Shown: piece by piece, positions 4,372-20,683 of the stretch
Layout of the letters: the number at the start of each line of letters is the position of its first letter
How positions within the stretch are numbered: position 1 is the stretch's first letter
Assembly (NCBI GenBank): GCA_022842845.1
Contig: JALHOT010000007.1
Location: 1 to 64,000, forward strand
Length of the DNA: 64,000 nt
From: Cyclobacteriaceae bacterium
GTDB lineage: Bacteria; Bacteroidota; Bacteroidia; Cytophagales; Cyclobacteriaceae
Direction: 5' to 3'
The notes under the pieces: model-generated
Told to the model about the DNA's origin: nothing
Databases searched by the model: none
What the model saw: only the letters and a program-made list of their open reading frames with translations
Position numbers and translations under genes: made by a program

Positions 4372-5646
4372 TCAAAACTGTGCCTCCTCGGTAGAGCCTT
4401 TTAATGCCACAGTTGAGGCCTCTCCCGCTGTGATGGTTTCTTGCACGGCATCGAAATAACCGGTACCTACAAAGGCCTGGTGTTTTACAGCCCTGAAGCC
4501 ACGCGACTGCATAGCAAACTCTCGCTCCTGCAATTGTGAATACCCTGCCATGCCTTGATCGCGGTACAGCTCGGCTAATTCAAACATAGAAGTATTCAGG
4601 GAATGAAACCCCGCAAGCGTAATGAATTGAAACTTATAGCCTAAGTCGGCCAGGTTTTCTCGGAAAGTCATCATGCTGTGCTTGCTCAGTTTAGAAGCCC
4701 AGTTAAAGGAAGGAGAACAATTATAGGCCAACATCTTACCAGGAAACTCACGATGGATAGCATTGGCAAATTCCTTCGCATCGCGTAAATCGGGATGCGA
4801 TGTTTCGCACCAGATCAGATCCGCATAAGGCGCATAGGCCAGGCCGCGACTGATCGCTTGCTCAATACCATTCTTTACCTGGTAGAAGCCTTCTATTGTT
4901 CTTTCACCATAGACAAATGGCTTGTCTCTATCATCAATGTCGCTGGTGATCAGGTTCGCGGCATCTGCATCAGTACGGGCTACGAGTATGGTTGGCACAC
5001 CCATCACATCGGCTGCCAAACGAGCAGCTACTAATTTATCGATGGCTTCACGTGTAGGCACCAATACTTTTCCCCCTAAGTGTCCGCATTTTTTTGCGGA
5101 AGACAATTGATCTTCAAAATGTACGCCCGCAGCGCCTGCTTCAATCATCATCTTCATCAATTCAAAGGCATTTAGGTTGCCACCAAAGCCTGCTTCTGCA
5201 TCAGCAATGATGGGAGCCATCCAGTGTATGTTGCCATCTCCACTGACCGTTTGAATTTGATCAGCACGCAGCAAAGCATTGTTGATGCGTTTTACGACAG
5301 CCGGTACGCTGTCAGCAGGATATAAACTTTGATCTGGGTACATCTGCCCTGATAAATTAGCATCGGCTGCTACTTGCCAACCGCTTAGGTAAATAGCTCG
5401 TAAACCTGCCTGCACTTGCTGCACTGCCTGATTGCCAGTGAGGGCTCCCAAAGCCGCCACATAGTGTTCGCTATGCAGCATGTTCCAAAGCCTCTCTGCA
5501 CCCAAGCGAGCCAGGGTATAATCAATTTTTACAGAGCCTGACAGCTTTACGACTTGTTCTGCTGTATAAGGTCTTTCAATGCCTTTCCATCTTGGATTAG
5601 TAGTCCAATTGGTAATCAGTTGGTTGATGCTATCGTGTGTCTTCAT
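4372..5646 (-). CDS. aceA: Isocitrate lyase
   Basis: 424 residues, slightly shorter than the E. coli enzyme. It cleaves isocitrate to glyoxylate and succinate, the first step of the glyoxylate shunt, in the cytoplasm. The catalytic motif KKCGH is at residues 185-189 (Cys187), preceded by the substrate-loop region [11 protein letters not shown] and FEDQ at 177-180. It follows aceB by 42 bp on the same strand and should share its transcript. There is no sign of truncation. Confidence 0.98.
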
Positions 5647-5688
5647 GAGTATAGGTATAGATTAATGTTTAGTTTTTCTTTAAATGAA

Positions 5689-7293
5689 TCATAGGTATTG
5701 ATAGGCCGGTAGCGTAAGGAATTCTTCAAAGTCATCGCTCAACACCAGCTTATCCAGCAAGGCTTCTGCATGGTTGAGATAAGTAACATCGCGCTTTTCT
5801 CTTCTGAATTGCTCCAACAGTTCTTTGATCTCATCGTCTGCGAGGCGCAGATACAATTCAAGATTAAAGGTTCTGCCATCGGCCAACAGTACGCGTTCAT
5901 GATTTAGCCATTGCCATAATTGAGCTCGCGAAATCTCTGCCGTTGCCGCATCTTCCATGAGGTAATTGATAGCCACCGCTCCTGTGCCACGCAGCCAAGA
6001 CTCCATATACAGCAGTGCCACCCTGATGTTAGTACGTATACCTTCCTCTGTAATCACAGTGCCTGCGGAGGAGACTTTTAGTAAATCCTGGGCATGTGCA
6101 GTCACATCATCTCGCTTAATCATTTTCTGGTGCACTGTATCTTGTAACACTTTATCAAAAGCTTCCCTGGCTATTGGCACTAAGGCTGGGTGTGCTACCC
6201 AGGTACCGTCAAAGCCATGAATGACTTCACGCACCTTGTCTTGCGTTACTTTTTCGAAAGCTTGTTGGTTGATGACTTCATCTTTACTGGGGATGAAAGC
6301 TGACATACCTCCTATCGCATGGATGTTGCGCTTATGACACGTTTTCACCAGTAACTGTGCGTAGGCACTCATAAAAGGAACTGCCATCGTTACCTTACTC
6401 CTCTCTGGCATTACATAACTTCTGTGAAGCTTGAATTTTTTGATGATGCTGAAAATGTAATCCCATCGGCCGGCATTGAGCCCGGCAATATGTTCGCGCA
6501 ATTCGTAAATGATTTCCTCCATTTCGAAGGCAGCCAATATATTTTCGATTAATACGGTGGCTTTAATCGTGCCCCTGGCAAGGCTCAGCCTCCTTTCAGC
6601 AAATAAGAAAATGTCATCCCATAAACGTGCTTCATGATGACTCTCCAACTTAGGCAAGTAAAAAAATGGCCCTTTCTTTTGCGTTGCCAATAAACCTCCG
6701 TTGTGATAGATGAATAAACCGAAGTCGACCAACGAAGCAGATACTGGTTTACCCTCCATGAGCAGGTGCTTCTCTTCAAGATGCCAACCTCGGGGTCTTA
6801 CTTTTAATAACGCTGGATGACTGTGCAACTCATATCGCTTGCCTGCTTCTGTTTCGTAGCAGATGGTGCCCCGCACCGCATCCATTAGATTCGCCTGACC
6901 ATCTATCACATTACGCCACGTGGGTGATGTTGAGTCTTCAAAATCTGCCATGAAAACTTTAGCGCCTGAGTTGAGGGCATTGATGATCATCTTCCGGTCA
7001 ACAGGACCTGTTATTTCTACCCTTCTGTCTTGCAAAACATCTGGAATGGGGGCTACCTCCCATTGCCCTTCTCGGATGTAATTGGTCTCGGGTAAAAAGT
7101 CAGGTAAATGCCCCTGATCCAGAGAGCGTTGTTTTTTCTTACGCGCTTCCAGCAGCAGAAATCTGCGGTTTGAAAATTCCTGGTGTAAACTGGCAATGAA
7201 GCTCAGTGCGCCAGGGCTTAACACCTGCTCATCTCCTGGCAAGAGTGGAGCCGCCAATTCAAGTTCCTTATTTTTTTGTAGGGTTGTGATCAT
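5689..7293 (-). CDS. aceB: Malate synthase A
   Basis: About 534 residues, typical of malate synthase A. It condenses glyoxylate with acetyl-CoA to malate. Visible family blocks include MADFEDSTSPTW, RPRGWHLEEKH, YIFSIIKKFK and GFDGTWVAHPALVPIA. I take the ATG at 7293 as the start. A TTG upstream at 7317 overlaps the likely promoter -7 element, so translation from it would begin before the transcript does. It is first gene of the aceBA operon and is divergent from the regulator at 7509, with an operator cluster between them. Confidence 0.97.
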   Translation of the reverse strand: MITTLQKNKELELAAPLLPGDEQVLSPGALSFIASLHQEFSNRRFLLLEARKKKQRSLDQGHLPDFLPETNYIREGQWEVAPIPDVLQDRRVEITGPVDRKMIINALNSGAKVFMADFEDSTSPTWRNVIDGQANLMDAVRGTICYETEAGKRYELHSHPALLKVRPRGWHLEEKHLLMEGKPVSASLVDFGLFIYHNGGLLATQKKGPFFYLPKLESHHEARLWDDIFLFAERRLSLARGTIKATVLIENILAAFEMEEIIYELREHIAGLNAGRWDYIFSIIKKFKLHRSYVMPERSKVTMAVPFMSAYAQLLVKTCHKRNIHAIGGMSAFIPSKDEVINQQAFEKVTQDKVREVIHGFDGTWVAHPALVPIAREAFDKVLQDTVHQKMIKRDDVTAHAQDLLKVSSAGTVITEEGIRTNIRVALLYMESWLRGTGAVAINYLMEDAATAEISRAQLWQWLNHERVLLADGRTFNLELYLRLADDEIKELLEQFRREKRDVTYLNHAEALLDKLVLSDDFEEFLTLPAYQYL

Positions 7294-7314
7294 TGTTTTT
7301 TCGTTTGGGATGAT

Positions 7315-7345
7315 CAAACCTAGACCAGAGAAAAATATAATTCAA
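7315..7345 (-). promoter_or_regulatory. Candidate aceBA promoter
   Basis: The minus strand has TAGGTTTG (7322-7315), an exact TAnnTTTG -7 element, and TTG (7345-7343) 20 bp upstream as a -33 element. The first operator box overlaps the -33 region. Transcription would start near 7308, which rules out the upstream TTG codon as the aceB start. Confidence 0.5.
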
Positions 7346-7396
7346 GCGAATTTTCGCTAAATAACTTTATTCGCTAAATTGAACTTTATAGCGAAT
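7345..7396. promoter_or_regulatory. Operator boxes 1 and 2 upstream of aceB
   Basis: Box 1 is AGCGAA-TT-TTCGCT at 7345-7358. Box 2 is ATTCGCTA (7369-7376) with its exact complement TAGCGAAT (7389-7396), 12 bp apart. The word TTCGCTAAA occurs twice directly, at 7353-7361 and 7370-7378. The same core in both orientations, placed over the aceB promoter and next to a RamB-type regulator, points to autoregulated control of the glyoxylate shunt. Confidence 0.6.
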
Positions 7397-7453
7397 GGCC
7401 TGAAGAGTCCAAAAAAGCCAATTTGGCTGATAGAAAGCTGAAAATATATTTTC

Positions 7454-7470
7454 ATTCGCCAACCAGCGAA
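7454..7470. promoter_or_regulatory. Operator box 3 near the regulator gene
   Basis: ATTCGCC and AGCGAA form a TTCGC-N7-GCGAA inverted pair ending about 38 bp before the regulator start codon. It carries the same core as boxes 1 and 2, in a position suited to autorepression. Confidence 0.45.
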
Positions 7471-7508
7471 GCACCTTTTGAGAAGCGTTTTAAAAAAAAC
7501 AAGATTCC

Positions 7509-9011
7509 ATGAAACACCAATCAAGCCTTAACGAAACCAATCTGCGTTTAATTTTCGGACTTAAACTCAAGCAACTCAGGCTAGAAAAAGGGCTGTCATC
7601 ACAAGCCCTGGCAGATGCTGCAGAACTCTCCGTTTCTTATCTCAATGAAATTGAAAAGGGCAAGAAATACCCGAAGGCCGAAAAAATAGCCAGACTTGCC
7701 AGCGCCCTGGATGTTAGCTACGACTGGCTTGTGTCGGTGCAGATGAGCAAGCAATTAGCACCTGTTGCCAAGCTTTTGCAAAGCAAGTTGATCAACGAAT
7801 TACCCCTAGAATTCTTCGGCATTGAAAAAACACAATTGTTTGAATTACTCTCAGGTGCACCCGTAAAACTCAATGCCTTCATCAATACCATCATCGAGAT
7901 AAGCCGCAACTATGGCATGCGCGTAGAAGATCTATACTTCGCCACACTTCGCTCCTATCAAGAAATGCACGATAACTATTTTGAAGATATCGAGCAGGCC
8001 GTGGATGCCTTCATTACTCAATATCAATTAGACACTTCAAAAGCTATCAGTACAGAATCATTGGTGCAAATTCTTACCCAACACTATCATTACATTATTG
8101 AAGAAGATGGACTTTCTAATCAGCCGGAATTGCAAGAACTGCGCTCTGTACTCATTCCCGGTAAACAGCCTCGTTTATTACTGAATAAAAACTTAAGTAA
8201 GACTCAAAGGGCTTTTATAGTAGGGCGTGAGGCAGGATTTTGCTTTATGCAAATTGATAATCGATCGCAGACCACCTCCTGGGTTTCGTTTGACTCTTTC
8301 GATGAGGTGGTTAATAATTTTAAAGGTTCATATTTCTCATGCGCTCTATTTCTGAATCGAAAGCATGTAATTGATTGGCTCAAAGATACTTTAACTGAAA
8401 AAAATCTGAATGTGAATAGATTTCAGGACTTAATGGACCGCTATGCTGTATCTCCAGAAATCCTCCTTCACCGCCTGACCAATATTTTACCCAGGTATTT
8501 TGGTATCAATGAATTATTCTTTTTACGTTTCAGCACACAACAGGGATCAGAAGTATATGAGCTAACAAAAGAGATGCACCTATCTGGTTTGCACAATCCA
8601 CACTCCAACATGTTAAACGAACATTATTGCAGACGCTGGGTGAGCATTAGTGTTTTAAAAGAACTAAATAATGCCGTAAGAACCGAGCAGTACACTCAAT
8701 CATTATGCAGGGTACAGCGATCAAAATACATAGGTACGGATAAAGAATATTTGATCATTAGTTTTGCCAAACCCATTGTATTTGGTGCTAATAAACACAA
8801 TAGTGTGTCTATCGGATTATTACTCACGGATCAACTAAAGAAGAAGGTTAAATTCTGGAACGATCCTCAAATTCCTATCCGCATGGTGAGCGAAACTTGT
8901 GAACGCTGCATTGCGACTGACTGCCAGGAAAGGGTAGAAAAACCACTCTACATTGCACAGCAACAAAAGGTGGAAAATTTAAAGTTAGCGCTAAAGGCAC
9001 TGAACGATTAA
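7509..9011 (+). CDS. XRE-family regulator of RamB/ScfR type (glyoxylate shunt regulator)
   Basis: 500 residues. Residues 13-70 form an XRE helix-turn-helix (QALADAAELSVSYLNEIEKG). The middle resembles the degenerate IrrE/ImmA-like domain of short-chain acyl-CoA regulators, without a clear HEXXH. The C-terminus has a Cys cluster, C464-x2-C467-x4-C472, as in RamB-like proteins, possibly metal binding. RamB of Corynebacterium represses aceA and aceB and this family tends to respond to acyl-CoA status; that role is inferred here from the divergent aceBA operon and shared operator boxes. It could act as activator or repressor. Confidence 0.8.
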   Translation: MKHQSSLNETNLRLIFGLKLKQLRLEKGLSSQALADAAELSVSYLNEIEKGKKYPKAEKIARLASALDVSYDWLVSVQMSKQLAPVAKLLQSKLINELPLEFFGIEKTQLFELLSGAPVKLNAFINTIIEISRNYGMRVEDLYFATLRSYQEMHDNYFEDIEQAVDAFITQYQLDTSKAISTESLVQILTQHYHYIIEEDGLSNQPELQELRSVLIPGKQPRLLLNKNLSKTQRAFIVGREAGFCFMQIDNRSQTTSWVSFDSFDEVVNNFKGSYFSCALFLNRKHVIDWLKDTLTEKNLNVNRFQDLMDRYAVSPEILLHRLTNILPRYFGINELFFLRFSTQQGSEVYELTKEMHLSGLHNPHSNMLNEHYCRRWVSISVLKELNNAVRTEQYTQSLCRVQRSKYIGTDKEYLIISFAKPIVFGANKHNSVSIGLLLTDQLKKKVKFWNDPQIPIRMVSETCERCIATDCQERVEKPLYIAQQQKVENLKLALKALND

Positions 9012-10254: not shown

Positions 10255-11121
10255 TTATTTCTTTTTACGCTTTGTTACGAAAGTAAGCACAGGACGCTTG
10301 CTGTGGCTCACCACATCCTCGGCAATGCTGCCAGCAAGTACGTGAGCAAAACCTGTGCGACCATGGGTAGCCATTGCCACCATGTCTGCATCAATGCTCT
10401 CGGCAAAGTAGATGATACCCTCCTCTTCGCTTAAATCGTTGAAGATGTTAATAGTATACTTTTTTAACTGAAGTTTATTTGCAAAATCCTCCATGGCTTT
10501 GCGTACTACTACATCGCGCTGAAAATTGGAGGGTGTGTTAATGCGCACTAAGTGAATAGTAGAGTCGTACATTTCCTGAGCCTTCTTAACAAAGCGTGAG
10601 AAAATTTCCTCGTCTTTATTCATAGAAGTAGCATACACTATGTCTTTGAAATTTTTGGTAGCTGGCTTGTTGTGAATAGTTAAAACAGGACAGGCAGCAT
10701 GCCTTACAACCTTTTCTGTATTCGATCCGATGACCATTTCCTCAAGTGCGGTCCTTCCAGATGTTCCCATCACAACCAGATCAACTTTGTTATCTGCAAT
10801 AATGGTGGTCATTCCATGAAAAGGAGAACCAATCCGCAACTCTCGCTTCACCTTAACGCCTTCCAACTTAGGATCGGTCGCTGCCTTCTCCATTTGCTTT
10901 TTGGCGCGTTCTATCATTTTTAGCATGAACAAGCGGTCTTCCATATCACCATCAAGGTTCATTTGGCCTCCTACGTTAAAGGATCCGCTTCCGGAAGAAG
11001 TTTCCTCAATTACATGCAACAAGGTTAGTTGTGCTCCTGATCTCTTGGCAATATCAGCTGCCACATCTATAGCCATTTGTGCCGTTTTAGAGAAGTCGGT
11101 AGGTACAAGAATTCTTTTCAT
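10255..11121 (-). CDS. Tandem-domain universal stress protein
   Basis: 288 residues with two UspA domains, about 1-150 and 155-285. Domain 1 has the ATP-binding signature VMGTSGRTALEEMVIGSNTEKV and domain 2 has MATHGRTGFAHVLAGSIAEDV (G-2x-G-9x-G-S/T type). Such proteins act in stress survival and low-oxygen adaptation in several bacteria; no specific partner is visible. It is transcribed alone, with its own terminator. Confidence 0.93.
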   Translation of the reverse strand: MKRILVPTDFSKTAQMAIDVAADIAKRSGAQLTLLHVIEETSSGSGSFNVGGQMNLDGDMEDRLFMLKMIERAKKQMEKAATDPKLEGVKVKRELRIGSPFHGMTTIIADNKVDLVVMGTSGRTALEEMVIGSNTEKVVRHAACPVLTIHNKPATKNFKDIVYATSMNKDEEIFSRFVKKAQEMYDSTIHLVRINTPSNFQRDVVVRKAMEDFANKLQLKKYTINIFNDLSEEEGIIYFAESIDADMVAMATHGRTGFAHVLAGSIAEDVVSHSKRPVLTFVTKRKKK

Positions 11122-11178: not shown

Positions 11179-11628
11179 TCAAGAAATAAAAACCATCGGA
11201 ATATTTAACTCATGCATTAATTCACTCCATTCGCTGTTATGCTCTGCCTCATAAGCAATGGCTTTGCACAAATAAATGCTGTGGATAAATTTATCCTTAA
11301 GGTGTGCCTCTAGTCGATCAGTTTCAAAGCCAACTTCTGCTGAAAAAGTATAGGGTACGTCATCAAGTTCTTTTACCCTGTCGCGTATTTTATCAAAACG
11401 TTCGTAGGCATCACGCTCCAGTCGCTGTTTGATATTAACCGATGACTTGATTTCACCAAAATGCTGATTTTTAAGTCTGTAAGGATAGATAACCACAAGC
11501 TTAGCACGCTTTTCTTCAGCACGTTTTGCCGCCTCCTGCAGGGCTCTCACCGAATCTTCTGAGAGGTCAACCATGCACAATATTGTATTTTGCTCTGCTT
11601 TCACTACCAATTGATTATTCCCTTTCAC
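11179..11628 (-). CDS. Universal stress protein-like protein
   Basis: 149 residues beginning at GTG (another in-frame GTG lies eight codons further in, and either could be used). The fold is suggested by the first strand TILCMVDLSEDSVRALQEA and the downstream alternating pattern. The C-terminal ATP-binding G-2x-G-9x-G motif is absent, so it is probably a non-nucleotide-binding UspA relative. It is divergent from the histidine kinase at 11725, with a 14-bp palindrome in the shared upstream region, so it is a likely target of that two-component system. Confidence 0.7.
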   Translation of the reverse strand: MKGNNQLVVKAEQNTILCMVDLSEDSVRALQEAAKRAEEKRAKLVVIYPYRLKNQHFGEIKSSVNIKQRLERDAYERFDKIRDRVKELDDVPYTFSAEVGFETDRLEAHLKDKFIHSIYLCKAIAYEAEHNSEWSELMHELNIPMVFIS

Positions 11629-11684: not shown

Positions 11685-11698
11685 ATGACTTTTGTCAT
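11685..11698. promoter_or_regulatory. FNR/CRP-type palindrome between usp-like gene and histidine kinase
   Basis: ATGAC-TTTT-GTCAT is a perfect palindrome with the 5-4-5 geometry of FNR/Dnr-type operators (TTGAT-N4-ATCAA). It lies in the divergent intergenic region and overlaps the TTTG (11691-11694) of a plausible promoter for the histidine kinase (TTTG, 18 bp, TAACTTTC at 11713-11720). Binding is inferred. Confidence 0.5.
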
Positions 11699-11724: not shown

Positions 11725-12963
11725 ATGATTCAAGGCAGCAGCGTGAAATTCAAAGAAATATTTGAAGGTTCCTCGGAAGGGATCGTGATTGTTAACAAAG
11801 AAGGGATTATCGTTGAGGCTAACCCCGCCTCAGAAAGAATTTTTAGATATGACTCTGAGGAGCTGGTCGGCCAAGCACTCGATTCACTATTACCCGGCCG
11901 CCTTCGCGAAAAGCATCATCAGTACAGGGATCAATTTCATAAAAATCCCTCTCCGCGCACCATGGGAATGGGGCGCGATTTAATGGCTTTAAGAAAAGAT
12001 GGCTCTGAATTTCCTGTTGAAGTAAGCCTGAGTCATACAGTTTCCGATGGCCAATTTTTAATAATGGCCTTTATTATTGATATAACCCAACGAAAGAAAG
12101 CGGAGAATGCCCTCAAACAAAGTGAAGAGCAACTCATTGTCTATGCTACTGAGTTAGAAAGAAAAGTAGAGGCAAGAACCGAAGCATTGAATGATTTAAT
12201 CCATAAGCTGGAAGAGGAAGTACTGGAAAGAAAAAAGGCAGAGGAAGAAGCCCGCAAATCACTGGAAAGAGAACGAGAACTTAATGAGCTAAAAACAAAG
12301 TTTGTTTCTATTGCCTCTCACGAATTTCGAACCCCCTTAAGCACCATCCTCAGCTCCGCCTCTCTTATCCAGCAATATAAAGACCGAGGAGATTTTGATA
12401 AACAGGAGAAACACATCAACAGAATTAAATCATCTATTAATCACCTTACCGGTATTCTCAACGATTTCCTGTCACTGGGCAAATTGGAGGAAGGCAAATT
12501 AGATGTAGCTATTGAAGAAATATCTTTAAAAGAATTCTTGATCGAAATACTGGAAGAAGTGAAACCCAGTTTAAAAGCAGATCAGCTCATTGATTTAACG
12601 ATTAATGAAAGCTGCGAGCTACATACAGACCCGCGCATATTGCGTAACATTCTTTTCAATCTATTGTCGAATGCCAGCAAATATTCCGATGCCGGAAAAA
12701 AAATTGACTTATACTGTACTTGCTTTGAAGATCGCATTACCCTGGCTGTACACGATGAAGGGATCGGAATACCTGAGTCAGAGCTCAAGCATTTGTTCGA
12801 TCGGTTCTTCAGGGCCAGCAATGCCACCAATATTCAGGGCACCGGACTTGGACTACACATAGTAAAACGTTATGTTGAACTTTTAAACGGAAGTCTCGCT
12901 TTTTCCAGCAAAGAAGGAAAAGGAAGTATATTTACTATCAACATACCCAACAACCTTAGCTAA
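11725..12963 (+). CDS. PAS-domain sensor histidine kinase, FixL-like arrangement
   Basis: 412 residues, soluble (no membrane segment). Order: PAS at about 8-120, coiled coil 125-190, HisKA with phospho-acceptor His199 in SIASHEFRTPLS, then HATPase_c with N, G1 (DEGIGIP) and G2 (GTGLGLHIV) boxes. In the PAS domain, His64 and Arg84 are 20 residues apart and stand before RKDGSEFP, which mirrors the haem-ligand His200 and distal Arg220 of Bradyrhizobium FixL. Many non-haem PAS domains share part of this pattern, so haem binding is only a possibility. It is 3 bp from its regulator gene and convergent to the cbb3 operon. Confidence 0.92.
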   Translation: MIQGSSVKFKEIFEGSSEGIVIVNKEGIIVEANPASERIFRYDSEELVGQALDSLLPGRLREKHHQYRDQFHKNPSPRTMGMGRDLMALRKDGSEFPVEVSLSHTVSDGQFLIMAFIIDITQRKKAENALKQSEEQLIVYATELERKVEARTEALNDLIHKLEEEVLERKKAEEEARKSLERERELNELKTKFVSIASHEFRTPLSTILSSASLIQQYKDRGDFDKQEKHINRIKSSINHLTGILNDFLSLGKLEEGKLDVAIEEISLKEFLIEILEEVKPSLKADQLIDLTINESCELHTDPRILRNILFNLLSNASKYSDAGKKIDLYCTCFEDRITLAVHDEGIGIPESELKHLFDRFFRASNATNIQGTGLGLHIVKRYVELLNGSLAFSSKEGKGSIFTINIPNNLS

Positions 12964-12966
12964 GCA

Positions 12967-14031
12967 ATGAAAAAGATACTACTTATTGAAGATAACCAGG
13001 ATGTTAGAGAAAACACGGCAGAGATTCTCACCCTGGCGGGCTATCAGGTAAGCACAGCCCAAAATGGCAAAGCAGGCGTGGAGAAGGCTCAACAAGAAAA
13101 ACCTGACCTGATTATTTGTGATATCATGATGCCTGAACTGGATGGCTTTGGCGTACTTCACATACTGAATAAAAATACAGAGACTGCTACTATCCCTTTC
13201 ATATTTTTAACGGCAAAGGCAGAGAAAACAGACATGCGCAAGGGTATGACTTTAGGCGCAGATGACTATTTGACAAAGCCATTTGACGATACTGATCTTT
13301 TGAATGCAGTAGAAGCCCGATTGCGCAAGCGGGAGCTGCTGCAACAAACGTATGATAATACAGAAGCAGGTTTGCAGACCTTCATCAAGGACGTAAAAAA
13401 GATACTTAACTTTGAAGACCTCGCCAAGGACCAAAAACTAAAAGGCTATAAGAAAAAAGCCACCATTTTTGATGAAGGTGAAATGGCCTCATCTTTATAC
13501 TTTGTTAAATCAGGCCAGGTTAAACTTTTTAAAGCCCATCCGGATGGGAAAGAATTGATTGTAAGTGTGCACAAAGCTGGAGACTTTTTTGGCTTCGAGG
13601 CCATTCTTCAAAACGATGCCTATACTGAATCAGCTGTTGCCCTGGAAGACACAGAACTTAACTTGTTGCCTAAGGCTGACTTTCTCACCATCATGTATGG
13701 CCATGTAGAAGTAGCCAAAAGATTTATTAACATGCTGTGCAGCAAAGTGCAGGAAAAGGAGGAACAATTACTACACCTGGCCTATAATTCCATTCGTCAG
13801 CGTACGGCCGAGTCGTTATTAAAACTGCACTCTCTGAAGCCAACAGAAAACACACTTAATATTGCACGCGAAGACTTGGCCAAAATGGTTGGAACTGCAA
13901 CAGAATCTGTTATTAGAGTATTGTCGGATTTTAAAGATGAAGGACTTATTGATATTGTGAGTGGCAAAATCATTCTGAAGCATGCTAACAAACTAGAGCA
14001 GGTAGTTCGTTGGAGTGTGGCCCGGAAATAA
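12967..14031 (+). CDS. Response regulator fused to CRP/FNR-type regulator (REC-cNMP-HTH)
   Basis: 354 residues. REC domain 1-120 with phospho-acceptor Asp52 (CDIMMPELDG) and Lys104. A cyclic-nucleotide-binding-fold domain spans about 145-260 (FDEGEMASSLYFVKSGQVKLF). The C-terminal Crp-type winged helix covers about 275-345, with recognition helix ATESVIRVLSDF keeping the E-x3-R arrangement that reads TGA half-sites. There is no Cys cluster for an iron-sulfur centre, so unlike FNR it should sense through phosphorylation. It resembles FixJ and FixK merged in one chain. Candidate targets are the 14-bp palindromes at 11685 and 19952. Confidence 0.93.
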   Translation: MKKILLIEDNQDVRENTAEILTLAGYQVSTAQNGKAGVEKAQQEKPDLIICDIMMPELDGFGVLHILNKNTETATIPFIFLTAKAEKTDMRKGMTLGADDYLTKPFDDTDLLNAVEARLRKRELLQQTYDNTEAGLQTFIKDVKKILNFEDLAKDQKLKGYKKKATIFDEGEMASSLYFVKSGQVKLFKAHPDGKELIVSVHKAGDFFGFEAILQNDAYTESAVALEDTELNLLPKADFLTIMYGHVEVAKRFINMLCSKVQEKEEQLLHLAYNSIRQRTAESLLKLHSLKPTENTLNIAREDLAKMVGTATESVIRVLSDFKDEGLIDIVSGKIILKHANKLEQVVRWSVARK

Positions 14032-14712
14032 TCAATCACACATGACCGGATCAGTAATGGTCATAGGCTCCTGAATATGTTGGTGTGTCATCAATGATCG
14101 ACCAATCAATAATGCACCCATGGCAATCATCATGATAGTTGTGACCTTGGCATAACTTAAACGCAGGTACTTACCTGCAAACTGCATTACAAAAGGTAAA
14201 CCAAGCATAACCGGCCATGTACCCATGCCAAAAATTAACATAAAGAAGAATCCATCGTATGCTGTCCGCAGTGTTAAGGTATAGGATAGTGCCAGGTAAG
14301 TGAGGCCACAAGGCAGTAAACCATTTAAAATTCCTGCAAGCATTAAACTACCGGCATGTTTTTCTTTTAATTGCTGAGAAAATTGCCGCTTGATGAACAA
14401 CACCACCTTATTAACAAATTGTGTTAAAAAAGGTATTCGCACTGAACGGATCGTTCCTACACCCAATAAGATTAAGACCGCACCCAAGGCAATAGAGAAA
14501 ATGGATTGGATAGAAGAGAAATTAAAAAGGGAGCCAAAGGAAGCAACCAGTGCGCCAAAGCTTGCATAAACCAATACCCGGCCAGTGTTATATAATACTC
14601 GGTTCAGCCATACTTGCTTATTGAATGAGGTGACTGCCAAAGCTAATGGGCTGCACATACCAGCACAATGCAAGCTACCACCTAAACCCAACAAGAGTGC
14701 AGTCCAAATCAT
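14032..14712 (-). CDS. TauE/SafE-like (DsbD_2-type) membrane protein of the cbb3 cluster
   Basis: 226 residues with about six membrane segments. The N-terminal LGLGGSLHCAGMC motif places it in the sulfite-exporter TauE/SafE (DsbD_2/UreH-like) group. Members beside cco genes are thought to help maturation of the oxidase, possibly by copper handling; this is inference from context. It overlaps ccoH by 4 bp (ATGA) and ends directly against the 3' end of the REC-CRP gene, which runs toward it. Confidence 0.82.
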   Translation of the reverse strand: MIWTALLLGLGGSLHCAGMCSPLALAVTSFNKQVWLNRVLYNTGRVLVYASFGALVASFGSLFNFSSIQSIFSIALGAVLILLGVGTIRSVRIPFLTQFVNKVVLFIKRQFSQQLKEKHAGSLMLAGILNGLLPCGLTYLALSYTLTLRTAYDGFFFMLIFGMGTWPVMLGLPFVMQFAGKYLRLSYAKVTTIMMIAMGALLIGRSLMTHQHIQEPMTITDPVMCD

Positions 14713-15137
14713 ATCACCACTGTTTTTTCTAAACGGTAAGCCTTATCACCTTCCTTCCATTGAAATCTAACTTTATAGAGGCCATTAGTCAGGCGTGGCA
14801 CACTTAGTCTCATACTGGAGTCTTGTTGCTGCGATAAAGTAAAAGTCTTATCCAATTCGCTATTAGAAGGTCGCATCAAGATGATTTTCCCTTCTTTTAC
14901 CTGCTGTAGATTAGGGTATAACACTTCCAAATAATCAGCCTTTACAGTCAATACAGGTTTAATTGCTAAAGCACTCACATTTTCTACAGACTCAAATTGT
15001 TCCTGGTAATGTAAATCCTCTTCATAATACTTCTGTGAGACCAGGCTCACATCTTCACGAAAACATACTACTACCAGTGTGGTAATAAAGCCAACGAAAA
15101 ATAAAAAGGCTACTACAATCGACTTACCCCAATTCAT
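14709..15137 (-). CDS. ccoH: FixH/CcoH family cbb3 oxidase assembly protein
   Basis: 142 residues. One N-terminal membrane anchor (residues 5-27) is followed by a periplasmic beta-rich domain; the juxtamembrane segment LVSQKYYEEDLHYQEQ is the family signature. FixH proteins assist assembly or stability of the cbb3 oxidase. It lies 45 bp behind ccoG and overlaps the next gene by 4 bp. Confidence 0.88.
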   Translation of the reverse strand: MNWGKSIVVAFLFFVGFITTLVVVCFREDVSLVSQKYYEEDLHYQEQFESVENVSALAIKPVLTVKADYLEVLYPNLQQVKEGKIILMRPSNSELDKTFTLSQQQDSSMRLSVPRLTNGLYKVRFQWKEGDKAYRLEKTVVI

Positions 15138-15182: not shown

Positions 15183-16607
15183 CTACTTTTTGGATGATAC
15201 CGGACCGATAAATTTAGTTTTCACACGCTCCAGCACTTTGCCATTTTCACTAACCTCAATCTCAATCGAAGTCTTTGCACTGTTAATACTTCCTGTGGGT
15301 AGTTCTAAAATCATTACTCGCTTTACAAATTGTTCTGCAGGCAAAATCAAGTTAGGTTCTCCAATCAATTGCATGATCGTTTCTGAAGGAGACACAACAG
15401 TAATTTTCAACTCTCTGTCCTCAAACGACTTATTGACAAATTCAATATTGTATAAATTGGTGATGGTGCCTTTATCCGTACGCTGGAATAAAGTACCTGG
15501 CACTTTTAAAACAGTAGTTTCAATAGGTGATCGTGTAAAAACGAGAAAGCTAAGCAGCACCAATAACGAAGTAAGCACGGCCGTATAGCCCAAAACCCTT
15601 GGATTCCAAAGCTTCTGAACCTTATTGACAATGGAGTTATAAGATGCAAAACGAATCAATCCTTTGGGCTTATCAATCTTTACCATCACATCATCACAGG
15701 CATCAATGCAGGCTGTACAATTGACACATTCGAGTTGAGTACCATGCCTGATATCAATACCGGTAGGGCATACATGGACACACAATTTACAGTCAATACA
15801 ATCTCCTTTGTCAATACGTGGTTCATTCTTCTTGAGCTTTCCGTGTGGTTCTCCCCTTATCCAATCGTAGGCAACTACAATCGAATCTTTGGATAACAAA
15901 ACACCTTGCAAACGACCATAAGGACACACGACAATACAAGCCTGCTCTCTGAACCAGGCAAAGACGAAATAAAAAATTCCAGTAAAAGCAATCAGTCCAA
16001 TAAACCCTGCCAGGTGTTCGGAGGGAGGTTCTTGCACAATAGCAATTACTTGATCCATTCCAATCAAATAAGCCATCGCTGTATGGGCAATGAGCACGGC
16101 AATGCCTACAAATAAAAATTGTTTAGTCCCCTTCTTGAAAATTTTTTCCTTAGTCCAGGGGGCTACATTAAGTTTGCGTTGCTGGTTAGCATCGCCCTCG
16201 ATCCAGTACTCAATTTTTCTATAGACCATCTCCATGAATAGTGTTTGCGGACATGCCCATCCACACCACACTCTGCCAAAAACAACGGTAAAGAGAATAA
16301 CAAAGACAAAAAAAGTAATGAGGGTTAAGGCTAGTAAAACAAAATCCTGTGGCCAAAACACCTGACCAAAAACAATGAACTTACGCTCAAAAATATTGAA
16401 GAGCATAAAGGGTTGCCCATTCATTTTTAAAAAGGGCCCAGCAAAAAACAATGATAGCAATACAAGGGTTACCAGCACCCGCTTGTTATGAAAAAAGCCA
16501 GCGGGCTTCTTGGGATACACCCAAACCCGCTTGCCTTTCTCATCAACCGTTGCTATCGAATCGCGAAACTCTTCTTCGTACTGATAAAGCTGATCTGTAT
16601 TATTCAT
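15183..16607 (-). CDS. ccoG: CcoG/FixG cytochrome c oxidase accessory protein
   Basis: 474 residues. There are about five membrane segments, a CGWACPQTLFMEMVYR motif, and two ferredoxin-type clusters (CIDCKLCVHVCP and CVNCTACIDAC) at about residues 270-310, followed by a periplasmic immunoglobulin-like C-terminal domain. The family acts as a cupric reductase in cbb3 oxidase biogenesis. It starts 1 bp after ccoP, so translation is probably coupled. Confidence 0.96.
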   Translation of the reverse strand: MNNTDQLYQYEEEFRDSIATVDEKGKRVWVYPKKPAGFFHNKRVLVTLVLLSLFFAGPFLKMNGQPFMLFNIFERKFIVFGQVFWPQDFVLLALTLITFFVFVILFTVVFGRVWCGWACPQTLFMEMVYRKIEYWIEGDANQQRKLNVAPWTKEKIFKKGTKQFLFVGIAVLIAHTAMAYLIGMDQVIAIVQEPPSEHLAGFIGLIAFTGIFYFVFAWFREQACIVVCPYGRLQGVLLSKDSIVVAYDWIRGEPHGKLKKNEPRIDKGDCIDCKLCVHVCPTGIDIRHGTQLECVNCTACIDACDDVMVKIDKPKGLIRFASYNSIVNKVQKLWNPRVLGYTAVLTSLLVLLSFLVFTRSPIETTVLKVPGTLFQRTDKGTITNLYNIEFVNKSFEDRELKITVVSPSETIMQLIGEPNLILPAEQFVKRVMILELPTGSINSAKTSIEIEVSENGKVLERVKTKFIGPVSSKK

Positions 16608-16608
16608 T

Positions 16609-17541
16609 TTATAATGAGGCCTGCACCTTCACTGAATCCGTCTTCACAACTTCTGTTTTTACTTCTTCCTTCCAAATCGGGCCCTGCGGTGCTTTAGCAT
16701 TAGGAGGATTTGAACCCTTCAAACTCATAATGAAAAAAGACACATCACGAATTTCTTCTGGCTTTAAGATTGCATTCCAGGCAATCATTCCTTTTTCCGG
16801 AACACCATTCTTTATGGTGGCGAAAATATTTTGAATGCTCCCGCCATGTAACCAATAATCATCTGTCAGGTTAGGACCGATACTACCCTCACCTTTGTCT
16901 TTATGACAAGATGCACAATTATTCTTATAAACAGCGGCCCCTTTGCTAATCAAATCGGCATCTGCAGTGTAGGCCAGTGCTGCTTCATCAATGGCAGCCA
17001 CCGGCTCAGCTGCACGGGTTTTTCTGATTTGTTCATCTGCCAACGCTATTTCATTGGCATACTCCTGCTCTTGTAACGGTACACTATCGGTGATGTGATA
17101 CACTACGAGGTAAACCACCGACCAGGCAATCGTACCATAGAACAACCACTTCCACCAAGGCGGCAGGTGATTATCCAGCTCTTTAATACCATCATAGTTA
17201 TGATCCAACACAATGGTAGCCTCCTTTTCAAGCGGTACTGCATTAGTCAGTTTTCTGTCCAATTTAGTCCACCAGCTTGGTTCAGGTACATACGCAACAC
17301 CCATGGCTGATGCTTTTTCACGTGCAGAGCGCTCCACAAAGGTGTTCAGTACCTGGAGCAACATAATAGCTACTACAAAAACCAGGATGGTTACAATACC
17401 CACCAAGGTCATGAGTACATAAAAAGGTGTCATCGGGTGATTAATCGGATCATCCCAAAATCCTTTCGTGGCGGTGGCATCCTGTGCCCAGGTGCTGATG
17501 GGCAATAGCATCACCAATAGGGCGATTATTTTATTTTTCAT
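16609..17541 (-). CDS. ccoP: cbb3 oxidase cytochrome c subunit CcoP (monohaem form)
   Basis: About 310 residues from the ATG at 17541, which gives a clean signal-like first segment (KNKIIALLVMLLP); a longer reading from 17577 would cover more of ccoQ. A second membrane helix, a hinge, and another helix (FYGTIAWSVVYLVVY) precede one cytochrome c domain with CASCH near residue 206. Proteobacterial CcoP has two haem c sites; only one CxxCH is present here, as is usual in Bacteroidota. It overlaps ccoQ by 11 bp. Confidence 0.93.
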   Translation of the reverse strand: MKNKIIALLVMLLPISTWAQDATATKGFWDDPINHPMTPFYVLMTLVGIVTILVFVVAIMLLQVLNTFVERSAREKASAMGVAYVPEPSWWTKLDRKLTNAVPLEKEATIVLDHNYDGIKELDNHLPPWWKWLFYGTIAWSVVYLVVYHITDSVPLQEQEYANEIALADEQIRKTRAAEPVAAIDEAALAYTADADLISKGAAVYKNNCASCHKDKGEGSIGPNLTDDYWLHGGSIQNIFATIKNGVPEKGMIAWNAILKPEEIRDVSFFIMSLKGSNPPNAKAPQGPIWKEEVKTEVVKTDSVKVQASL

Positions 17542-17725
17542 GACCTGAGTGATTTGGTTTACTGGTTGCATCATCAATTGGCATGTTGCTCATGTGCTGT
17601 ATGAACTGTTTGTTAACCGTAAAGGCCCACCAGATCAGCAACAAAAAGAACACGAAGAAAATTACAAAGGATATGAGCGGCCAGATGGCCACATTATCGA
17701 TGCTTTGAAGAATATTTTTGTACAT
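17531..17725 (-). CDS. ccoQ: cbb3 oxidase small subunit CcoQ
   Basis: 64 residues with a single membrane helix (residues 13-37) followed by a short polar tail ending His-Glu-Lys, the form of CcoQ/FixQ. It is 9 bp behind ccoNO and overlaps ccoP, the classic NO-Q-P order. Its role is oxidase stability. Confidence 0.85.
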   Translation of the reverse strand: MYKNILQSIDNVAIWPLISFVIFFVFFLLLIWWAFTVNKQFIQHMSNMPIDDATSKPNHSGHEK

Positions 17726-17734
17726 AAGCCTTAA

Positions 17735-19918
17735 TTATTGATTAGCTGAAAGTGCTGTGTCCTTAACCTTAATATCAGTACCCAGTCGCTGCAGATAAGC
17801 AATCAAAGCTATTATCTCTGCATCTTGTATCACTTCGATTCCTTCCATCTGCAAGTTCTCCACAATGCGAGCTGCCTGTTTGTCGAGATCTTCATTGGCT
17901 GTTTGCTCATACCCTTCTGCATAGGGAACACCAATGGTGCGCAGCGCATTTATCTTTAAAGCAGTCTGTTCTTTATCAATTTGTTGTTCATACAACCATG
18001 GGTATGCAGGCATGATGGTTCCTGCTGACACAGAGCCCGGATCAAGCATATGATAATAATGCCATGAATCTCCATACTTGCCACCTACTCTTTGCAAATC
18101 AGGACCAGTACGCTTTGATCCCCATAAGAATGGATGGTCGTACACATATTCACCTGACTTGGAGTATTCACCGTATCTTTCTGTTTCGGAACGGAACGGT
18201 CTGACCATTTGCGAATGGCATCCAACGCAACCTTCACGGATGTAGATATCTCTGCCGTGCAATTCCAGTGGTGTATACGGTTTTACACTGGCAATGGTGG
18301 GTACATTTGATTTAATCAGGAATGTTGGAACCATTTCGATAGCACCCCCGATTAAAATTGCTACCAGCGCAAGTGTGGTAAAAACAATAGGTTTACGCTC
18401 TAACACAGCGTGCCAGCCTTTATTGCCATGGGAAGCAATAGTGAGTGGTGCTGCTTCGGTTGCCTCATTGGCAATGAACTTACCTGAATAGGCTGTTTTT
18501 ATTAAGTTGTATGTCATAATGATGGTACCTACGAGGTACAAAGCACCACCAACGGCCCTCAACATGTGTAGAGGAAGAATCTGAACAGTAGTCTCCAAAA
18601 AGTTTTTGTACATCAAAAAACCATCTGGTGTGAATTCTTTCCACATCAAGCTTTGCACCACACCGGATATATACATAGGCAAGGCATAGAAAATGATACC
18701 TAGTGTACCTAACCAAAAATGGAGATTGGCTAATTTGTTAGAATATATTTTAGTATCCCACATTTTGGGTACCAGCCAATACAGCATACCGAAGATCATA
18801 AAGCCGTTCCAACCAAGGCCCCCCACGTGTACGTGTGCTACAATCCAATCAGTAAAGTGAGCAATGGCATTGATATTTTTTAAAGAAAGAAGTGGACCTT
18901 CCAAAGTTGCCATACCATAAGCAGTTACGGCCACCACAAAAAACTTCAGAACCACATCTTCTCTTACTCGGTCCCAAGCACCACGTAACGTTAGTAAACC
19001 ATTAAGCATACCACCCCATGATGGAGCAATAAGCATAATAGAAAATACGGTACCCAGACTTTGCGCCCAATCAGGTAAGGAAGTGTACAATAGATGGTGA
19101 GGGCCTGCCCAGATGTAAATGAAAATCAAAGACCAAAAGTGAATAATGGATAAACGATATGAGTAAACAGGTCTGTTCGCTGCTTTGGGCAAGTAATAGT
19201 ACATTAAACCTAAGAAGGGTGTAGTTAAAAAGAATGCCACTGCATTATGTCCATACCACCATTGCACCAGGGCATCTTGTACACCTGCATACCAGGAGTA
19301 ACTCTTAAATAAGTTCACTGGCATTTCGAAAGAATTCACCACGTGCAATACCGCCACGGTTATAAATGTGGCAATGTAGAACCAGATAGCTACGTACATA
19401 TGCTGCTCACGTCTGCGCAAAATGGTGCCGATCATATTAATACCAAACACTACCCAGATAAGGGTAATGGCGATATCGATTGGCCACTCCAATTCTGCAT
19501 ATTCTTTAGATGTAGTCAATCCTAAAGGCAGGGTGATTGCCGCTGCCAGAATAATGGCTTGCCAACCCCAAAAATTTATCCAACTGAGGGTGTCATTGAA
19601 CATGCGAGTCTTCAGCAAGCGTTGCATCGAATAATACACACCTGCAAACATGGCATTGCCCACAAAGGCAAAAATGATGGCATTGGTGTGTAATGGTCTG
19701 ATGCGACCAAAACTGGAGTACTGCAAATCAAAATTGAAGATAGGCCACACTAGTTGCAGCGCGGCTGTAAGTCCTACCAGCATACCCACCAGGCCAAAAG
19801 CCACGGTAGCGATGATGAAGGCCTTGACAATTTTATTGTCGTAACTGAATTTTTCGAGTTCCATAGGCAGTTCTGAGCTTACATTTTGATTAGATGATGT
19901 AAAAGTACCCCTACTCAT
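17735..19918 (-). CDS. ccoNO: Fused cbb3 oxidase subunits I and II (CcoNO)
   Basis: 727 residues. Residues 1 to about 490 are CcoN, the haem-copper catalytic subunit, with twelve or more membrane segments and the Cu-ligand region VQWWYGHNAVAFFLTTPFLG. The rest is CcoO: a membrane anchor and a cytochrome c domain with CVGCH at about residue 565. Fusion of the two is common in Bacteroidota. The start could be the ATG at 19918 or the one at 19864 (MELEKFSYDN), which fits the usual CcoN N-terminus better. It is a high-affinity oxygen reductase, first gene of the operon, with an FNR-type palindrome 34 bp upstream. ccoI and ccoS are not adjacent. Confidence 0.95.
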   Translation of the reverse strand: MSRGTFTSSNQNVSSELPMELEKFSYDNKIVKAFIIATVAFGLVGMLVGLTAALQLVWPIFNFDLQYSSFGRIRPLHTNAIIFAFVGNAMFAGVYYSMQRLLKTRMFNDTLSWINFWGWQAIILAAAITLPLGLTTSKEYAELEWPIDIAITLIWVVFGINMIGTILRRREQHMYVAIWFYIATFITVAVLHVVNSFEMPVNLFKSYSWYAGVQDALVQWWYGHNAVAFFLTTPFLGLMYYYLPKAANRPVYSYRLSIIHFWSLIFIYIWAGPHHLLYTSLPDWAQSLGTVFSIMLIAPSWGGMLNGLLTLRGAWDRVREDVVLKFFVVAVTAYGMATLEGPLLSLKNINAIAHFTDWIVAHVHVGGLGWNGFMIFGMLYWLVPKMWDTKIYSNKLANLHFWLGTLGIIFYALPMYISGVVQSLMWKEFTPDGFLMYKNFLETTVQILPLHMLRAVGGALYLVGTIIMTYNLIKTAYSGKFIANEATEAAPLTIASHGNKGWHAVLERKPIVFTTLALVAILIGGAIEMVPTFLIKSNVPTIASVKPYTPLELHGRDIYIREGCVGCHSQMVRPFRSETERYGEYSKSGEYVYDHPFLWGSKRTGPDLQRVGGKYGDSWHYYHMLDPGSVSAGTIMPAYPWLYEQQIDKEQTALKINALRTIGVPYAEGYEQTANEDLDKQAARIVENLQMEGIEVIQDAEIIALIAYLQRLGTDIKVKDTALSANQ

Positions 19919-19951: not shown

Positions 19952-19965
19952 CTGATTTTAATCAG
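19952..19965. promoter_or_regulatory. FNR-type palindrome upstream of ccoNO
   Basis: CTGAT-TTTA-ATCAG has the 5-4-5 geometry of FNR boxes and matches TTGAT-N4-ATCAA at eight of ten positions. Its centre is 41 bp from the upstream ATG and 95 bp from the preferred ATG at 19864, so an activator position is possible. No convincing TAnnTTTG element is seen near the implied start site. Confidence 0.5.
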
Positions 19966-20102: not shown

Positions 20103-20683
20103 AGTTGTGACTGTTGTTTTTTTTGCACATGTCATCCTAAAGAAGAAAAATCCTTCAGACCAAATATTCAGGCATCTTTTATAGAACAATCCACCAACTA
20201 TACTTGCGGGGGTGCAGCCACGCAATCGCTACTAGCTTACTGTGGTGATTATTGGCGAGAGGACCGCCAAAGACTAAGGCAGATTAACTCAGGGTACTAA
20301 CGGTAGAAATATTAGAGTTCTCTGCGATTCATTGGGTTATAGCACAAAGGTATTCACCAACATGAGTACTGATTCTCTCAAGCGTTTCGTTGACCAGGGC
20401 TATCCCATGTTACTGGCTATTCAAGCCTGGAGCGGAGTAATTTCCGACTAGTATGAATGATTGGAGTAACGGGCACTATGTATTATGCATCGGCTATGAT
20501 GATGAAAACTACTATTTTATAGATCCTTCTACGCTGGGCAACTACACCTTGATACCTGCCAAAGCTTTTGGGGAAAGGTGATACGACATAGATCAGGAGG
20601 GAAACAAACTTTACAATTTTGCAGTCTGGATTTATAAACAGGAAAAAAAATATGAGCCTAGCAAAATTCTACCAATGCACTAA
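20103..20683 (+). pseudogene. Decayed C39-like cysteine peptidase gene
   Basis: Three collinear pieces in different frames form a broken papain-like (C39-like) peptidase. From 20103 the frame is open into SFIEQSTNYTCGGAATQSLL, containing the nucleophile Cys, and stops near 20300. A shifted frame continues with NGRNIRVLCDSLGY and YPMLLAIQAW to a stop at about 20448. From 20453 a third piece has GHYVLCIGYDD (catalytic His) and FIDPST, with a TGA at 20579-20581, probably from a Trp codon, before the natural stop at 20681. An upstream Cys-rich stretch suggests a lost lipoprotein signal. No start codon remains. Flanks at 19966-20102 and 20684-20883 show no gene. Confidence 0.75.

Follow-up and report, generated by a model that had tools for sequence, protein, structure and literature searches.

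FixL, FixJ, FixK and haem-binding PAS domains are already known, and FixJ has a LuxR/GerE-type helix-turn-helix (HTH) output domain. The account in PMC4999443 describes FixL as an O2-sensing haem kinase, fixK as the only known conserved member of the FixJ regulon, and FixK as lacking an iron-sulfur (Fe-S) cluster; it also describes how cco and cyd genes were added to the FixK regulon in Caulobacterales. The same account describes the FixL-FixJ-FixK cascade as slower than one-component regulation, and an alternative FixL circuit of Rhizobium, hFixL-FxkR-FixKf, as ending in a FixK-type protein at fixNOQP. Here we analyse 64,000 nt of a Cyclobacteriaceae bacterium (GenBank assembly GCA_022842845.1, contig JALHOT010000007.1, positions 1 to 64,000, forward strand), hereafter the window, in which the gene for a PAS histidine kinase is followed by a gene that fuses a phospho-receiver to a CRP-type DNA-binding module (REC-CRP), the pair facing an operon for cbb3 oxidase (cco). 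On balance we favour reading the pair as a two-protein, FixL/FixJ-FixK-like circuit in which a haem kinase would signal to REC-CRP, and REC-CRP to the cbb3 genes. We found no description of a receiver-CRP fusion with a FixL-like kinase in Bacteroidota in the open-licence full-text literature, a scope that most subscription papers lie outside.

The window pair shares with the FixL-FixJ-FixK cascade of rhizobia and Caulobacter a PAS kinase with the haem-His and distal-Arg positions, a phospho-receiver, an Fe-S-free CRP-type protein and a cbb3 neighbour. Unlike that cascade, it joins receiver and CRP module in one protein, has no LuxR-type HTH, and its PAS domain is only 25.6% identical to that of BjFixL. 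It also differs from hFixL-FxkR-FixKf, which has a hybrid kinase and a separate response regulator and still induces a separate FixK. An original prediction from the sequence had described a soluble PAS histidine kinase with REC-CRP 3 bp downstream on the same strand; its coordinates, strands and gap are exact, and the Pfam domains agree:

11725..12963, + strand: soluble sensor histidine kinase, 412 amino acids (aa); PAS about 8-131, coiled linker, HisKA 190-257 containing the predicted phospho-acceptor H199, HATPase_c 302-409 (Pfam)
11914..11916, + strand: H64 codon, predicted proximal haem ligand
11962..11964, + strand: M80 codon; the residue aligns with FG214 Met172, one of the alternative distal ligands of the haem in that protein
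11974..11976, + strand: R84 codon, aligned with the FixL distal Arg
12967..14031, + strand: REC-CRP response regulator, 354 aa; receiver 4-116 (Response_reg), linker helix, cyclic-nucleotide-binding (CNB) fold 161-243 (cNMP_binding), CRP-type HTH 278-345 (HTH_Crp_2)
13120..13122, + strand: D52 codon, predicted phospho-acceptor

Catalytic residues are intact in both proteins. The kinase carries the H-box SHEFRTPL, which recurs as SHEF(R/K)TPL in 117 of 119 partner kinases, and its best 19-residue hydropathy mean of 1.3 suggests no membrane segment. The regulator has receiver residues D9, D52, T82 and K104; D9, D52 and K104, together with E313 and R317 of the HTH, are invariant in 124 of 124 REC-CRP rows, and position 82 is Thr or Ser. 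An intact receiver is a FixJ-type feature, whereas the output domains are cNMP_binding and HTH_Crp_2, not LuxR/GerE. With FixK2, FNR and CRP, the regulator shares the CNB fold and HTH, an ExxxR recognition helix and a box of the TGA-N6-TCA type. Unlike them it has an N-terminal receiver, no Fe-S cysteines, and E or D (121 of 124 rows) at position 221, which we take to be the site of CRP's Arg that binds the cyclic AMP phosphate.

The cysteines bear out the predicted lack of an Fe-S cluster. There are two, C51 and C258, and only C51 is conserved, so the regulator has no FNR-type cluster. C51 adjoins the phospho-Asp D52 (13117-13122) and is invariant in all 124 rows; it is possibly a redox site, or merely a family trait. 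A model of REC-CRP reached a predicted local distance difference test (pLDDT) score of 84.8. Residues 85-99 fall below 50, and the 50 fold matches listed cover the CRP half only (CRPs, FNR and FixK2 by Foldseek); we therefore do not read a receiver-CRP contact from the model.

Kinase and REC-CRP form a conserved family of pairs. Two collections of loci, which share some genomes, underlie the counts. Set 1 consists of the best 80 among at least 551 related stretches returned by a scan of one genome per species, a choice skewed to near relatives. Set 2 is a sample of 296 genomes spread evenly across the phylum, in which REC-CRP was scored present on a full-length match at E<=1e-60; class totals of 73 (Bacteroidia) and 223 (others) were tallied from genome listings. 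Counting the window, 79 of 81 set-1 loci have a kinase directly upstream of REC-CRP, with the two genes overlapping or at most 50 nt apart in 71, and the pairing therefore exceeds chance (L067 and L088 have no adjacent kinase). The kinase also adjoins REC-CRP at 40 of 43 sample loci, which represent 42 of the 43 REC-CRP genomes (own genome excluded; G198 counted twice; extra copies in G033 and G190 excluded). REC-CRP occurs in 43 of the 73 Bacteroidia genomes versus 0 of the 223 outside the class. Loci like the Bacteroidota ones also appear in records titled Alphaproteobacteria, Thalassobius, Thalassovita and Bdellovibrionales metagenome-assembled genomes (L047, L044, L056, L063), which are probably mis-binned contigs.

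Alignment to solved proteins suggests that the window PAS domain most likely binds haem through H64. H64 and R84 are 20 residues apart and align without gaps on two BjFixL residues, the His within RSRHDSY and the Arg within IIGIGR, the relation that had been predicted; we take these to be the haem ligand H200 and the distal R220. Against PDB sequences (phmmer), the nearest solved relatives are FG214 of Fimbriimonas ginsengisoli (2.5e-15, 59.9 bits) and FixL (4.7e-15, 59.0 bits), which tie, and the haem PAS of Escherichia coli DosP also matches (4.5e-14). DosP residues H77, M95 and R97 presumably correspond to window H64, M82 and R84. An AlphaFold2 model of the domain, built on 92 rows (91 of 110 relative PAS stretches were used in the alignment), has a pLDDT of 91.6 and places H64 within helix 58-73. 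In the proposed structural comparison with FixL, Foldseek ranks FixL first (9.6e-12), with FG214 at a root-mean-square deviation of 1.5 over 116 columns and DosP close. A second structure aligner leaves FG214 (Z 17.3) and FixL (Z 16.8) tied at the top, with PAS domains not known for haem close behind.

The likeness to FG214 extends to individual residues. In the printed alignment (numbering derived here), FG214 His156 falls on H64 and Met172 on M80, 16 residues further on, and both proteins have an RTMG stretch. FG214 is an HTH-PAS one-component factor with Leu at the R84 position, and DosP has a c-di-GMP (cyclic diguanylate) phosphodiesterase output; in both respects the window kinase differs. 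A preprint on FG214 describes His156 as the proximal haem ligand, a mutant of it without haem, and a distal ligand that is His175 or Met172, giving His-His or His-Met ligation (PMC13060918). For the FixL/DosP PAS cluster, the F-alpha His is described as the primary determinant of haem binding; about 40% of the cluster lacks it, with a shift of function there (PMC10468136).

H64 is enriched beside REC-CRP. Of the 112 partner kinases with a PAS match (7 of 119 gave none), 109 keep it: all 32 of the window clade, 40 of 41 in the rest of set 1, and 37 of 39 in the sample. As a control, we took 28 similar PAS domains from 19 relatives with no REC-CRP in about 1.5 kb of flank, and 16 of them have H64. 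By these alignments, H64 and R84 are marks of a PAS subfamily, and H64, though enriched, is not confined to the pair. H64 and R84 as pair-specific marks were rejected, since both occur together in 8 of the 28 control domains.

Two types of PAS sensor sit on one regulator. Compared with BjFixL, 92 PAS domains beside REC-CRP separate into 16 at 37-47% identity (at least 102 bits) and 76 at 20-33% (at most 89 bits). The FixL-type group, 13 of whose 16 members come from the 43-locus sample, carries IIG-x-GRE or a near variant, and one member matches FixL structures at 8.2e-37. By its alignments, the window PAS is of a second, non-FixL type; in FG214, the solved relative of this type, the His that matches H64 binds haem. 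For the window-type relative L052, PDB scores are 59.2 bits for FG214, 53.3 for DosP and 50.7 for FixL. Of 93 window-type PAS domains, 92 have M80, at a place where the FixL-type stretch IIGIGR has Ile. On a FastTree tree of the regulator, the distribution of the FixL-type label takes 5 changes to explain, and well-supported branches force no fewer than 3 of these. Different sensors thus appear to have replaced one another on a common output, with the caveat that parts of the tree are poorly supported and that two long FixL-type branches come together.

The description of the window kinase as FixL-like stands in part. The haem-His and Arg positions agree, and FixL-type PAS domains occur at 16 other loci, while the window PAS is at low identity to FixL and equally near to FG214. 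We rejected filing the window kinase as FixL, its PAS being of a separate type. The NCBIfam FixL equivalog is outside the best 25 of 91 models for the window kinase, but this model, with its cut-off of 850, gives only 166.7 for L246, a relative whose PAS is FixL-type.

Among the partner kinases, the PAS domains of L248, L249, L264, L265 and L267 contain an NC(R/N)FLQ stretch, which we assume to be typical of LOV blue-light domains, and L248 and L249 also have GAF (Pfam); light input to REC-CRP through such LOV-like kinases is possible. The partner kinases of L055, L044, L045, L057 and L074 have no window-type PAS match and begin with a receiver-like stretch, which in L055 is by Pfam a receiver with a weak PAS_4.

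The pair faces the cbb3 operon, as had been described. Along it, ccoNO and ccoG are named by NCBIfam and FixH/CcoH by Pfam, ccoP falls below its cut-off, and the open reading frame (ORF) in the ccoQ place has no Pfam match. The neighbourhood reads:

17735..19918, - strand: ccoNO, fused cbb3 oxidase subunits I and II (ccoN-ccoO fusion; NCBIfam)
17531..17725, - strand: 64-aa ORF at the ccoQ place, assigned by position
16609..17577, - strand: ccoP-like c-type cytochrome subunit (NCBIfam 111 bits, cut-off 180)
15183..16607, - strand: ccoG (NCBIfam)
14709..15137, - strand: ccoH (Pfam FixH)
14032..14712, - strand: DsbD_2 family membrane protein, cytochrome c biogenesis-type (Pfam)
11179..11628, - strand: USP2, a weak universal-stress-protein homologue divergent from the kinase, just below the Pfam cut-off
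10255..11121, - strand: USP1, a two-domain universal stress protein (NCBIfam/Pfam)
11686..11697, no strand assigned: CRP/FNR-type box TGACAAAAGTCA (read towards USP2), between the divergent USP2 and kinase genes
19952..19965, - strand: CRP/FNR-type box CTGATTAAAATCAG, a predicted site upstream of ccoNO

The operon lies tail to tail with the pair, the end of the DsbD_2 gene (14032) abutting the last base of REC-CRP (14031) on the opposite strand. USP2 stands beside the kinase in 27 of 31 loci (L009-L039).

Linkage to cco genes recurs well beyond the window, as a survey of REC-CRP fusions in Bacteroidota confirmed. At least two of ccoNO, ccoP and ccoG flank the pair in 41 of 80 set-1 loci, a lower bound, as many flanks are short. 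Four arrangements occur: in 22 loci the cco genes lie downstream and face the pair, in 14 they stand upstream in the same orientation, in 3 downstream in the same orientation, and in 2 upstream on the opposite strand. Among the 38 sample genomes that have both genes, ccoN lies within 15 kb of REC-CRP in 15, from six families, and within 40 kb in 18. A binomial estimate for 14 of 37 linked genomes, the window left out, is 5e-19; it assumes a 3-Mb genome and ignores relatedness.

CRP/FNR-type boxes stand at both promoters. The window has two copies of the sequence TGAYWAAARTCA, against 0.18 expected, and both are intergenic, one ahead of ccoNO and the other in the gap that separates USP2 from the kinase; two copies turned up in 1 of 100 shuffles; a looser form of the box shows no excess (8 versus 4.4 expected). 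TGAY-N4-RTCA is common to ccoN upstream regions, with a perfect copy within 350 bp in 36 of 38 set-1 cases, counted from the start matching the window's. Background at the same loci is 7.3% of random 350-bp stretches and 187 of 955 upstream regions of ORFs of at least 200 aa, the 955 including ccoN and kinase genes and ORFs that are possibly not genes. Upstream of the kinase, too, all 32 window-clade loci have a box.

The box is over-represented in the window's own genome, with CTGAYNNNNRTCAG at 19 places versus 3 for the reversed control and TGAYWAAARTCA at 20 versus 6. Several copies precede genes that belong to respiration and low-oxygen life: a second USP gene and those for CcmE, a radical-SAM protein read as HemN, NADH dehydrogenase chain 3, DabA, a 2-oxoacid oxidoreductase with POR domains and a peroxidase taken to be KatG. 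Other copies lie within genes or before unrelated ones (L,D-transpeptidase, homocysteine methyltransferase, EF-G-like). The genome encodes three further Crp/Fnr proteins, one hemN-linked with helix core ETVIR, one on contig C14 with REVVSR, and a third that differs. Two genes near the C14 gene (G000:C14:70266-79090) have upstream TGACAAAARTCA boxes, one for sulphur transport and the other for a rhodanese/metallo-beta-lactamase; this is perhaps a separate sulphur regulon with a similar box.

The model that we favour is built on an observed architecture with intact catalytic residues, conserved pairing, cco linkage, FixL-type PAS domains elsewhere and boxes at both promoters; haem, its ligand, phosphotransfer, DNA binding and the direction of control are its predicted parts. 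The kinase PAS would carry haem b on H64, and a change in oxygen or redox state would alter kinase activity. The kinase would autophosphorylate on H199 and hand the phosphate to regulator D52, and the phosphorylated receiver would switch the fused CRP module to bind CTGAY-N4-RTCAG boxes. Its targets would include ccoNO, the high-affinity oxidase, which would be activated, and the pair's own divergent USP promoter. Flavobacterium psychrophilum is described as raising cbb3 at oxygen limitation (PMC9723704). With receiver and CRP in one protein, there is no counterpart to the transcription of fixK by FixJ; two proteins would do the work of FixL, FixJ and FixK, with no need for a second round of transcription.

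Several observations weigh against this model, and those on the sensor concern both the kind of haem and its presence. R84 is replaced in 41 of the 93 window-type PAS domains (present in 52), both H64 and R84 recur in the REC-CRP-free controls noted above, and near-equal fold scores come from 3lyx, a PAS of unknown cofactor (Z 16.0), and from LOV flavin domains (up to 15.7), so the PAS fold alone does not name the cofactor. If the haem were a redox switch of the FG214 kind, held by H64 and a distal M80 rather than binding O2 as in FixL, the signal would be cytoplasmic redox or another gas. FG214's place at the head of the PDB sequence list, clearer still for L052, and of the fold list, tied with FixL in both, its His-His or His-Met ligation (PMC13060918) and the near-invariant M80 speak for such a switch, which we nevertheless rate as rather unlikely: all 32 window-clade kinases have R84, the counterpart of the distal Arg in FixL and DosP, and FixL-type PAS domains stand beside the same regulator elsewhere. 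A PAS without haem, structural or binding a small ligand, with its His and Arg conserved for other reasons of subfamily, would suit the low identity to FixL, the eight control domains with both residues and the large share of the cluster that lacks the His (PMC10468136). This we consider improbable, as the cluster's primary haem determinant is that same His (PMC10468136), nearly all partner kinases keep it, and FG214 uses it.

Who reads the box at ccoN is a separate matter. Box copies within 400 bp upstream of ccoN, counted here from the upstream-most in-frame ATG, occur in 34 of 37 genomes with REC-CRP and in 18 of 25 without; another Crp/Fnr protein can therefore use the box, and we rejected the box as proof of REC-CRP control over cco. 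The hemN-linked protein shares the ExxIR helix core with REC-CRP (ETVIR and ESVIR). Outside the window clade, just 9 of 45 loci have the box before the kinase (L047 and L056, with too little upstream DNA, left out); the sample count is 19 of 40 loci, 3 of which have no upstream DNA. In 23 of the 38 genomes with both genes, the distance from ccoN to REC-CRP exceeds 15 kb or the two are split between contigs (11 genomes). REC-CRP does not track ccoN either, which is present in 38 of 43 genomes with REC-CRP and in 25 of 30 without. Co-occurrence was rejected as evidence, ccoN being near universal in the class (63 of 73). These points would agree with a cbb3 operon under a stand-alone Crp/Fnr protein, such as that of the hemN operon, while REC-CRP controls other genes and lies near cco for historical reasons. 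We hold this to be unlikely, too, given that cco linkage recurs in six families and four arrangements and that the pair's own promoter carries the box throughout the window clade. REC-CRP is likely a reader of the box, though not the sole possible one.

A wider version of the two-protein circuit is more tentative. Across Bacteroidia, high-affinity respiration in many genomes may be under a one-step circuit from haem-PAS kinase to CRP, its regulator core conserved and its sensors swapped several times (FixL-type, FG214-type, receiver-containing or LOV-like kinases), and the fused protein that would replace FixJ and FixK may have arisen apart from the rhizobial cascade. Such a fusion would remove a transcription step from the cascade. 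Present in 43 of the 73 Bacteroidia genomes sampled, it gives oxygen control in this class a named candidate, where the open-licence papers searched describe no such system. Natural sensor swaps on one output are useful for learning how haem PAS signals reach a kinase, and REC-CRP for learning how phosphorylation can drive a CRP fold.

Two further features of the window lie outside the pair and its operon. Between ccoNO and an acylase gene, short ORFs at 20332-20581 look by eye like the remains of a cysteine-peptidase-like gene. At 4372-9011, isocitrate lyase and malate synthase genes stand beside a divergent HTH regulator as a glyoxylate-shunt unit; the regulator's best NCBIfam match, below cut-off, is RamB (acetate metabolism), and its M78-like part is just below the Pfam cut-off.

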